From: Anaerolineae bacterium
Lineage (GTDB): Bacteria; Chloroflexota; Anaerolineae; Promineifilales; Promineifilaceae
NCBI GenBank assembly: GCA_025929715.1
Contig: JAICPS010000002.1
Location: 1 to 37,982 of the forward strand
DNA: 37,982 nt
Direction of reading: 5' to 3'
The first letter of the stretch is position 1. The number at the start of each line of letters is the position of its first letter. The translations under genes were made by a program, and so were the position numbers. Below are positions 3,273 to 27,140 of this stretch, one piece after another. Below the pieces are notes generated by a model. That model did not search any database. It had not been told where the DNA came from and saw only the letters and a list, made by a program, of their open reading frames with translations.

Positions 3273-4727
3273 ATGAAAATTATCGTTGTCGGTACAGGTT
3301 TTGTGGGACTTCCGCATGCAGCCGTGCTCTCTGAATACGGGCATGAAGTTTATGCATACGACATAGATGAGGAACGCATTCGCGCGTATCAGTCGGGTGA
3401 CCGGGACCAAATTGAACGATACGTCAACGAACCGGGATTAGTAGAGGCCATCGAAGAGACTATCGACCGGTATCTTCATTTCACGACTAGTCTGGACGAC
3501 GTGATCGAAAGCACCGACATCATTTTCATGTGCCTACCGACGCCACCAAAGCGAGACGGCTCTACTGACCTACGTTTTTACATGAACGCTGCCCACTACC
3601 TGGGCGGACTCCTGGCGCAGCGTTCAGACAAGAAGCGCGTTGTTCTGGTAAATAAGAGTACGGTGCCTGTGAGTACAGCGCGCCAGTTGCAAAAGGTGAT
3701 GGAGGAGCACGGTGTTGAGAATTATGGCGTCGCCTCAAATCCGGAGTTTCTGGCCCAGGGCAGCGCTGTGGAAGGATCGCGCCGTCCCGATCGTGTCGTC
3801 GTCGGAGCCGATACTGAAGAGGATTTCGTCCTATTACGCCAGGTTTATTCTCAATTTGTGAATCACGTGCGCATTCGCTACCTGGAGACGACCCCCGAAA
3901 CCGCAGAATCAATCAAATACGTGGCCAACACGCTGCTTCTCACCTATATCTCCTTCTGGAACGGCGTCGGCGCCAGACTCGGCGAATCATACGCCAACAT
4001 TCACATGGAAGATCTGAAGATCGGCGTAACTGCCGACGAGCGCATCAGCACGTGGGGTTCTTATGTCAGCAATGGGGCAGGTGGAAGCTGCTTTGGTAAA
4101 GATATTCAATCGCTCATTTACCAGCTTAACCGCTCGGGCCGTTCTACGGATCTGCTGCAGGCAGTCTACAATATCAACGAGTACCAGAAGACTTATATGA
4201 TCGATCGCGCGGTATATGAGGCCAATTTTAATTTCAATAACAAACGTGTGGCGTTATTAGGGCTCGCGTTCAAGAAAAGAACCAACGATATGCGCGACTC
4301 TTCTGCGCTGAAGGCAGTGGAATCGCTCCTAGCCAAGGGCGTCGCCGAAATCCGGGCTTACGATCCATTGGCAATGGACGATGCGCAGCGAAGTTGGTTC
4401 AGCCCCGATAATAACCATCTCTTTGAACGCATCACCTACCACGGGACGGCAAAGAAGGCCATCGAGGGGAGCGATGCCCTCTACATTTCTACGGATTGGG
4501 AAGAATTTCGTGGGCTGGCCTCAACCATCGAGCAGGCCGTGGAGCCGCCGTACCTTGTCATCGATGGGCGTCGCATGATTCCCGATTACGATCGACTTAT
4601 CGCCAAAGGGTACGATTATCTTTCTGTGGGTAGCGTGCTGCGCAGGCCGCAGCCTGAAGAAATGGACGAGGATCATAGCAACGGGCAGCTGAATGCAGGC
4701 GTAGGTCAGAAGATGAAAACTGCCTGA
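3273..4727 (+). CDS. UDP-glucose/GDP-mannose dehydrogenase family protein (UDP-glucose 6-dehydrogenase-like)
   Basis: MKIIVVGTGFVGLPHAAVLSEYGHEV, NPEFLAQGSAVEGSRRPDRVVVG, GAGGSCFGKDIQSL catalytic Cys motif; SD AAGGAGAAATGTA upstream of ATG. Confidence 0.9.
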   Translation: MKIIVVGTGFVGLPHAAVLSEYGHEVYAYDIDEERIRAYQSGDRDQIERYVNEPGLVEAIEETIDRYLHFTTSLDDVIESTDIIFMCLPTPPKRDGSTDLRFYMNAAHYLGGLLAQRSDKKRVVLVNKSTVPVSTARQLQKVMEEHGVENYGVASNPEFLAQGSAVEGSRRPDRVVVGADTEEDFVLLRQVYSQFVNHVRIRYLETTPETAESIKYVANTLLLTYISFWNGVGARLGESYANIHMEDLKIGVTADERISTWGSYVSNGAGGSCFGKDIQSLIYQLNRSGRSTDLLQAVYNINEYQKTYMIDRAVYEANFNFNNKRVALLGLAFKKRTNDMRDSSALKAVESLLAKGVAEIRAYDPLAMDDAQRSWFSPDNNHLFERITYHGTAKKAIEGSDALYISTDWEEFRGLASTIEQAVEPPYLVIDGRRMIPDYDRLIAKGYDYLSVGSVLRRPQPEEMDEDHSNGQLNAGVGQKMKTA

Positions 4728-4743
4728 TTTTTCATTTCGCCAA

Positions 4744-4772
4744 GTGACCGGCGTTTCGCGAGTGCCGGTCAC
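4744..4772 (+). repeat. Hairpin repeat copy 1 (UGD / ABC permease convergent spacer)
   Basis: GTGACCGGC-GTTTCGCGAGT-GCCGGTCAC; 9-bp perfect arms, 11-nt centre, 17 nt past the UGD stop. Confidence 0.85.
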
Positions 4773-4839
4773 ATCTGAAAGATCTAATAGTGCGCCAGGC
4801 TGCCCTCTTTCCGGGCGCGCTCTACTGCGAAGCTGAAAA

Positions 4840-5595
4840 TTAGCAGGGAAGCGGTAGGAGGACAATCGCAAAGGCCGCAAGAATAATCAAGTCTGGCGCC
4901 AGAGTCGCCCACGAAGCGCCTTGCAGCAATGCCAGACGCATGGCGCGCAAAGCATAGGTGATAGGCAGCAGGTTGGCAACAGCCTGTAGCCAGCCAGGCA
5001 TGATTTCCACTGGGTAGAAGACGCCGCCTACAAGCGTAGCGAACCCACCAAAGAGGCCGGTTACTGGATCGCCTCGCTTAATAACCATGATTACGCTCGC
5101 CGCAATGATCCCCAAAGCGGCAAAGGCCGACACGGCGATAAGCAGCGTAACGACAGCGCCCCAGTAGTTCGCGTTCGCCAGTTCCATCCCCAGCGCGATG
5201 CCGAGGAGCAGGTAGACGACGACGCGAAAGGTTGTGAAGGCGTAGCTCCACGCCGCCGAACCAATTATCACGAATGAAACCGGTGCGGGCGTCATGAGCA
5301 TGGCTTCCAACGTTCCGGTAGTCTGCGCCTGGCGCAGGGCGCGAGCAAAACCGCTGAGACCTAGCGTAAAATAACTGGCAAAAGCCACGCCAATGAGCGC
5401 GAATGCAAAATAGTCACCACCATAAGGCGCCAGCAGCGGCCGCACGCTGTCACCGAGCAAACGGGATACGAAGTAGTAGGTGACCGCCGTAAAAATAATG
5501 CCAATGATGCCAAGCAGAAATGAAAAGCGGTAGCTGATTTCGGTACGTAAATCTCGGATCAGGAAGGCGCGGATCAGTCGCAGACGATCCAGCAT
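4840..5595 (-). CDS. ABC-2 type transporter permease (C-terminus apparently frameshifted)
   Basis: Polytopic ABC-2 permease directly downstream of an ABC ATPase; 'GGVFYPVEIMPGWLQAVANLLPITYALRAMR' motif. ORF stops early (IVLLPLPC*) while the -1 frame continues a family-like C-terminus (see findings). Confidence 0.85.
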   Translation of the reverse strand: MLDRLRLIRAFLIRDLRTEISYRFSFLLGIIGIIFTAVTYYFVSRLLGDSVRPLLAPYGGDYFAFALIGVAFASYFTLGLSGFARALRQAQTTGTLEAMLMTPAPVSFVIIGSAAWSYAFTTFRVVVYLLLGIALGMELANANYWGAVVTLLIAVSAFAALGIIAASVIMVIKRGDPVTGLFGGFATLVGGVFYPVEIMPGWLQAVANLLPITYALRAMRLALLQGASWATLAPDLIILAAFAIVLLPLPC

Positions 5596-25645: not shown

Positions 25646-26128
25646 TCATTGGCCAGACTGGCCCAACACCATATCGCTGACGCTGCCACGCAGCGCCAGA
25701 AGGATTGCATCTCCCATGCTTTGCGCCGGAACGGGCGCCGCCTGAAGTGGTTCAGGCGCAGGCTGTGTAGGCGCCGGCGCGGGATATTGCGGTACCACGA
25801 GATATTCCATGTCCTCCGGCGCAGCTCGCACAAAACCCAGGCGCGCCGCTTCCTGCTGCATCCGTTCCAACGATTGCGCTTCGGCAACGGTTCGCTCCAG
25901 CGCTGCATTGTCGCGCTTGATAATTTGCAGATCGTTTTGCAAAATCTGTACCCTGCGGCCGGTACTAGCAATATTACTGGCCTGGCTGAGATAGATTGCT
26001 CCTACCAACGCCGCTACAGCCAGAACTACGAACCAGCCCATCGCTACCTGAGCGTCGGTGAGAATACCAAGTCGTCTCGCCCGCTGCCGCTTTTGTCTTC
26101 CGGAACTTTTTTCTGCTAGGACTGCCAT
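25646..26128 (-). CDS. ftsL: FtsL-like bitopic division protein
   Basis: Basic N-terminus, single TM (MGWFVVLAVAALVGAIYLSQA), coiled coil (VQILQNDLQIIKRDNAALERTVAEAQSLERMQQEAARLGF), position between rsmH and ftsI. Start MAVLAEKSS at 26128 with a GGAG SD; the longer ORF to 26284 overlaps rsmH. Confidence 0.75.
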   Translation of the reverse strand: MAVLAEKSSGRQKRQRARRLGILTDAQVAMGWFVVLAVAALVGAIYLSQASNIASTGRRVQILQNDLQIIKRDNAALERTVAEAQSLERMQQEAARLGFVRAAPEDMEYLVVPQYPAPAPTQPAPEPLQAAPVPAQSMGDAILLALRGSVSDMVLGQSGQ

Positions 26129-26156
26129 CGCTACTTGTCTCCGGTATTTTTCAGAG

Positions 26157-26185
26157 GTGACCGGCACTTTGCAAGCGCCGGTCAC
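26157..26185 (-). repeat. Hairpin repeat copy 2 (rsmH-ftsL spacer)
   Basis: Minus strand GTGACCGGC-GCTTGCAAAGT-GCCGGTCAC; 9-bp perfect arms extending to about 13 pairs with one G-U; 14 nt past the rsmH stop. Confidence 0.85.
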
Positions 26186-26198
26186 TTGAGAATTTGAG

Positions 26199-27140
26199 TT
26201 ATACGCTAATCGTTGCTCCAAGCTTCTCGGCGACCCGCAATCTTGCGCTGCGGCTGCGAGGATTGATTTCGATTTCCTGCTCACCTGGCTTAACCGCCTT
26301 CCGGGTGATAAGCCTCACGACTGCTTCGGCATCACAGGTGCAGATAGGCTGACGCGGGGGACAAACACAGTCTCTAGTGAGATCTCGAAAAAAATTCTTA
26401 ACGAACCGGTCCTCTAACGAGTGGAAACTGATCACCGCGATGCGGCTACCGGGTTGCAACAGCTCGATGGCTTCCTGCAAGCCCACTTCCAACTCGGCAA
26501 GCTCCTGGTTAACAGCGATCCTTAGCGCCTGGAACACCTGCGTGGCGGGGTGAATTCGGCGGCGCCGCGAGTGGCCTGGCGCTTCGTGTTCGATCAGCTT
26601 TGCCAATTCAAACGTCGTAGATATCGGACGGGCGCTTACAATTGCCCGCGCATACTTACGGCTCAGACGTTCCTCGCCATAGCGCCAGAAGATATCCGCT
26701 AGAGCATTCGCGCTTAGACTGTTAACCAGGTCGGCGGCCGTTTTTCCCGCGCTGGTATCGAAACGCATGTCGAGTGGCCCCTCGCGCTGAAACGAAAAGC
26801 CTCGAGCGGGATTTTCTAACTGTCGTGACGATAAACCCAGGTCTAGCAAAATACCGTCCACCTTTGTAAAGCCATGGATTGGAGCCAATTCTCCCATCCG
26901 AGAGTAGCTGTCGTGCACAAACGTTACACGGTTGCTATGTTCTGCCAGACGATCTGCGGCGAATGACAAGGCCTCTTCGTCGCGATCGAAGGCCAACAAA
27001 CGGCCGTCGGGTGCCGAGGCTTCCAGGATACCGGCGCTGTGTCCGCCGGCTCCAACTGTACCGTCGACGTACTGTCCGCCAGGACGTGGCTCGAGTAAGG
27101 CCAGAACTTCATCGTACAGAACCGGAACATGCTCTTCCAT
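26199..27140 (-). CDS. rsmH: 16S rRNA (cytosine(1402)-N(4))-methyltransferase
   Basis: [87 protein letters not shown]. Confidence 0.97.

Follow-up and report, generated by a model that had tools for sequence, protein, structure and literature searches.

The question raised by this locus is whether the strong hairpin in the spacer between rsmH and the gene in the ftsL position is a signal of the genes around it or one copy of a dispersed repeat. The window, i.e. the whole stretch of 37,982 nucleotides that was analysed, contains exactly two sites of the palindrome at three or fewer mismatches, and both match with none; in shuffled versions of the window the mean number of occurrences was 0.02, and two were never reached. 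The palindrome core in the rsmH-ftsL spacer (26157..26185, - strand) reads GTGACCGGC-GCTTGCAAAGT-GCCGGTCAC, with a 13-bp stem that includes one G-U pair on the - strand and a 3-nt loop, and is part of a full oriented unit at 26151..26190 (- strand; CTCAA-palindrome-CTCTGA). The second core (4744..4772, + strand) reads GTGACCGGC-GTTTCGCGAGT-GCCGGTCAC and is part of a unit at 4739..4778 (+ strand; GCCAA-palindrome-ATCTGA). Both copies sit exactly where the initial annotation had placed them, with identical arms of 9 + 9 nucleotides, and the stems of about 13 pairs that it had claimed are borne out by folding: on the transcribed strand of the upstream gene each copy forms a stem of 13 bp closed by a loop of 3 nt, the two fold energies being -22.3 and -17.4 kcal/mol. 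Upstream of the spacer copy lies rsmH (26199..27140, - strand), an MraW methyltransferase gene recognized by the Pfam family Methyltransf_5 (E 2.1e-113), and downstream lies an ORF (25646..26128, - strand, with a putative ATG at 26128) that has no Pfam match and is named ftsL by its position only. The second copy follows a UDP-glucose/GDP-mannose dehydrogenase gene (3273..4727, + strand) and faces a convergent gene for an ABC-2 type membrane protein (4840..5595, - strand), both assigned by Pfam. The palindrome lies 13 nt from the stop codon of rsmH and 16 nt from that of the dehydrogenase ORF, in both cases just past the stop codon as had been described, and a scan of the whole window against Rfam matched no family.

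Searching the source genome, a metagenome-assembled genome (MAG) of 5.06 Mb in 776 contigs that is 94% complete, we observed 116 sites at three or fewer mismatches and 89 at two or fewer, against 5 and 0, respectively, for a control consisting of the same pattern read backwards. The initial annotation would have been undermined had the two window copies been the only ones in the genome, and they are not. Examination of 59-60 copies in context (about 407 kb, about half of all copies) gave a consensus unit of about 40 bp, CAG-GTGACCGGCACTT-nnn-AAGTGCCGGTCAC-CTCTGG, which is longer than the 29 bp first recognized; the consensus of the flanks is YTCAG-palindrome-CTCTGG. The AG..CT of these flanks lengthens the stem to 15 bp, and the next position holds a conserved mismatch, C..C in one orientation and G..G in the opposite one. 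Among copies with AG..CT, the flanks are CAG..CTC in 16, GAG..CTG in 9, CAG..CTG in 6 and GAG..CTC in none (Fisher p 2.5e-4), and this conserved asymmetric mismatch gives the repeat unit a direction. Compensated variants of the stem are often found (e.g. GTGCCCGGC..GCCGGGCAC and GCGCCC..GGGCGC). The copies are mostly singlets, and the inverted-pair (REPIN/BIME) arrangement was not found. At three sites (L079 2044, L090 3025, L091 3060) a full copy is directly preceded by a half-copy (CAGGTGACCGGC...) that points the same way, as would be seen if an older copy had been hit or displaced by a newer one, and at L080 13664 a further palindrome variant, GGCGCCAGGCACTT-CAG-AAGTGCCTGGCGCC, adjoins a GTGACCGGC half-site.

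The placement of the copies is far from random. With genes called by our own coding model trained on these contigs, 51 of 59 copies are non-coding, compared with about 10% under random placement (p 7e-42), and the nearest stop codon lies at a median of 15 nt, compared with 76 nt for random intergenic placements; the individual distances are approximate because the gene calls come from a self-trained model. Convergent gaps hold 14 of the 46 classified copies and are enriched (expected 9.5%), while divergent gaps hold 3 of the 46 and are depleted (expected 25%). The family is thus placed as REPs are, i.e. in intergenic sequence, between convergent or unidirectional ORFs and downstream of coding regions.

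A position about 15 nt past stop codons, the avoidance of divergent gaps and a strong RNA stem (-17 to -22 kcal/mol) would also be expected of a transcribed hairpin selected as a terminator or for protecting or processing the 3' end of the mRNA from the upstream gene; REPs of other bacteria can indeed function as RNA hairpins (PMC3733652). The features that should set such an element apart are, however, missing from the family. In gaps between tandem genes the unit runs with transcription in 13 cases and against it in 10, of the stem pairs that are G-U on one strand and A-C on the other, 12 have the G-U on the transcribed strand and 10 on the opposite one, and a run of T after the stem (at least 5 T in 8) occurs on 3 of 117 strand-sides, compared with a background of 2.9%; these are small tests, which a weak bias would escape. 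The initial annotation had proposed an RNA-level element with a fixed orientation to the upstream gene and had allowed for G-U pairs in that orientation. As judged from the flanks, the two window copies do share an orientation relative to their upstream genes, but the split of 13 to 10 means that this is not a property of the family, and the tolerance of G-U pairs is likewise not a feature of the transcribed strand. An intrinsic terminator was rejected, the T-run being at background level only, and termination at 26157 would moreover be polar, since that copy lies between rsmH and a next gene on the same strand. Neither is the hairpin kept at orthologous positions: it is absent from all 29 orthologous rsmH-ftsL spacers examined in relatives, and the family as a whole is absent from the congener. 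Given the lack of bias in orientation, G-U pairs or T-runs, the RNA-element reading is not supported, and we regard it as improbable; nothing indicates that the hairpin serves the two genes that precede the window copies as an RNA signal.

The distribution among relatives is patchy. In the sole congener in our genome collection (G001) the stricter pattern has 0 copies, and a census of palindromes revealed no recurrent family within 162 kb. Among 396 genomes from across the class, a close match is present in 24, nearly all of which have one to eight, and a scan that recorded organism names placed the nearest organisms with this type of palindrome in Chloroflexota, mainly Anaerolineae. Such patchiness among related genera points to a mobile element. 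The spacers downstream of rsmH in four loci of other genera (L303, L307, L316, L323) contain different, unrelated palindromes, and the one at L307 (genome G010), AACGATTTGGTAAATCGTT, resembles palindromes that adjoin a RAYT of the same genome. The near absence of the family from sister genera also bears on the idea that the palindrome is a chromosomal protein site (an operator, or a site for a nucleoid or gyrase-like protein) that is kept by selection rather than transposition. Such a site would show a nearly perfect dyad and be present in many near-identical copies, as is the case here, but the copies avoid the promoter-side (divergent) gaps, a symmetric dimer has no need of a conserved asymmetric flank, and family-specific sequences pair with transposase clades (see below), so that this explanation is very unlikely.

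We then consider the transposases. In relatives, genes that match Y1_Tnp and REP_Tyr_transpos often lie between two matched palindromes, typically of 25-40 bp and near the ORF; this is the case for 32 of the 81 distinct RAYT ORFs examined in Anaerolineae and relatives. Across these 32 ORFs the similarity of the palindrome arms tracks the similarity of the RAYT proteins (Mantel r 0.61, with none of 2000 permutations as high); in Stenotrophomonas, RAYTs coevolve with the REPs that flank them (PMC2817692). The arm of the source family, AGGTGACCGGCACTT, is closest to AGGTGCCCGTCACTT (L269), ACGTGCCAGGCACTT (L274, L277) and ATGTGACAGTCACTT (L266), and the RAYTs at these four loci fall in one protein clade, with an HUH motif and YIHxNP and with matches to NF047646/PF01797. 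Palindromes of the same format bracket RAYTs at L239, L266, L269, L270, L274, L277 and L110, and the source palindrome therefore belongs to the class of sequences that bracket RAYT genes. The G012 gene at L110 (positions about 504-1120 of this locus, which is on contig C213) has lost its reading frame through a tandem duplication (about 22 bp), and both halves resemble intact relatives; the palindromes around it (431-481 and 1126-1184) have a common core, GTGACAGTCACC, and differing, locus-specific outer arms, each being perfectly self-complementary over 51 and 59 bp, respectively. Many genomes also give a weak match to Y1_Tnp (positions 20-108 of the profile) with a recurrent protein about 390 aa long (frames of about 376-455 aa, e.g. 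G001:C340:5135, G012:C272:3312 and G014:C65:3416); this could be a distant relative of the HUH enzymes or a conserved protein with no relation to them.

The REP-associated transposase (TnpA_REP) whose presence the initial annotation had suggested checking was found in relatives, in related form, but not in the source genome itself. There, searches with PF01797 (Y1_Tnp) and with an alignment of six sequences from the clade gave no match, the latter at E<=10, and the best hit to NF047646 (REP_Tyr_transpos) had an E of 0.79, not above chance; with a MAG that is 94% complete, this absence is not certain. Accordingly, we saw no RAYT gene bracketed by copies of the palindrome in the source genome, and none bracketed by exactly GTGACCGGCACTT either in other multi-copy genomes (G145, G401, G101, G151, G209, G044) or across the phylum. 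A RAYT-like match in G015 (L367) has an A-variant of the palindrome on one side only, at a distance of about 440 bp.

One sister-genus genome, S016_13 (G012), has 174 matches to a looser pattern. Its palindrome, GTGACAGGCACTT-GCC-AAGTGCCTGTCAC, mostly occupies the middle of a 90-bp element that ends in GGGAAGG..TTTTCCC (loci L100-L109, L122-L223), and 51 of 54 intact copies of this element are flanked by identical 3-nt duplications, TAA or TTA in nearly all cases. Judging by its ends and YTAR-like target, the element is a putative IS5-like one. A second large REP family in this genome was rejected, the high count being mostly due to this palindrome-bearing MITE. The G012 palindrome and the source family share a 33-bp format, 12 of 13 arm positions and similar flanks (TTCAG..CTTGG in G012), whereas the terminal repeats and TAA/TTA duplications of the 90-bp element have no counterpart in the source family. 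That the source family might itself be a DDE-transposon MITE in which the palindrome merely travels along is suggested by the mid-element position of the related palindrome in G012, where 51 of 54 intact copies have target duplications, but is largely refuted, and the least probable of the explanations, since conservation in the source genome ends about 6 bp outside the palindrome and its copies have neither terminal repeats nor a consistent target duplication. It is possible, if somewhat short of an even chance, that members of one hairpin superfamily are spread in sister genera by two machines of unrelated kinds: in the source genome by a RAYT-type single-strand mechanism acting on the bare REP-like unit, and in S016_13 as cargo in the centre of an IS5-like DDE-transposon MITE. 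If this were true, the persisting unit would be the hairpin itself and not one transposase.

From these observations, we hypothesize that the two hairpins are, with high probability, copies of a non-autonomous, REP-like palindrome family with a unit of about 40 bp that was spread by a transposase of the RAYT (TnpA_REP) type. The REP/MITE-like palindromic repeat that the initial annotation had offered as its other reading is upheld by the roughly 116 dispersed, mostly intergenic copies, by their patchy distribution and by a format shared with palindromes that bracket RAYTs. The repeat strand would fold into a hairpin in single-stranded DNA, an HUH/tyrosine transposase would cut and rejoin the hairpin strand, and copies would survive mainly where they are harmless, i.e. 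right behind stop codons and between convergent or tandem genes; for binding, cutting and movement we extrapolate from work on the TnpA_REP of E. coli and others (PMC8266576). In this lineage the source family was presumably moved by a RAYT of the L269/L274/L277/L266 clade, and, as none is in the present assembly, that RAYT may have been lost, may be missing from the MAG or may have acted from another replicon. The link between RAYTs and the source family is indirect but strong as a class. For annotation, the lesson is one of caution: even a strong hairpin in the rsmH-ftsL spacer is not necessarily a regulatory element of the dcw operon.

REP-type repeat families are best described in Proteobacteria, and in the open-licence papers searched we found no description of such a family in Anaerolineae. 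With a palindromic unit of about 40 bp and 116 sites in one genome (5 for the control), within the 20-40 bp and the tens to hundreds of copies typical of REPs, the family is a REP in the broad sense. The absence of the GTAG/GTGG tag beside the stem, where the flank consensus is CAG..CTCTGG, excludes it from the canonical GTAG REPs, and an origin from a REPtron in the source genome is unsupported, because no RAYT was found there. The Anaerolineae RAYTs and their matched, GTAG-less palindromes constitute a ready data set on how transposases read hairpins.

Among described repeats, the closest are REPs with their RAYTs and the partly self-complementary repeats, lacking GTAG, that flank TIRYTs or atypically structured RAYTs (PMC3733652, PMC6006769). 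With the RAYT-associated REPs of E. coli, Stenotrophomonas and Pseudomonas the family shares short, high-copy, extragenic and oriented palindromes, a location near 3' ends in convergent or tandem gaps, and an association with RAYT genes, which related palindromes bracket and with which they co-vary (PMC2817692, PMC3733652, PMC8266576). Unlike these, it has no GTAG/GTGG foot, its 15-bp arms are nearly perfect around a 3-nt loop, its copies are mostly singlets rather than BIME/REPIN pairs, and its host assembly contains no RAYT. The repeats of TIRYTs or TIRtrons (Di Nocera et al. 2013) resemble it in that RAYT-like genes are flanked by inverted repeats other than GTAG (PMC3733652), some of the repeats of TIRYTs and atypical RAYTs are self-complementary, and solo copies are moderately abundant (PMC3733652, PMC6006769); RAYT subclass 2.6 and class 3, with their 'atypical secondary structures' (Quentin et al. 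2018), are also near (PMC6006769). The described TIRs, however, often carry a GGGGWSAS motif, whereas the Anaerolineae palindromes have GTGxCxGxCACyT and related arms, and the RAYT subclasses with atypical structures belong mainly to Bacteroidetes, Planctomycetes and Acidobacteria, whereas the present palindromes belong to Anaerolineae.
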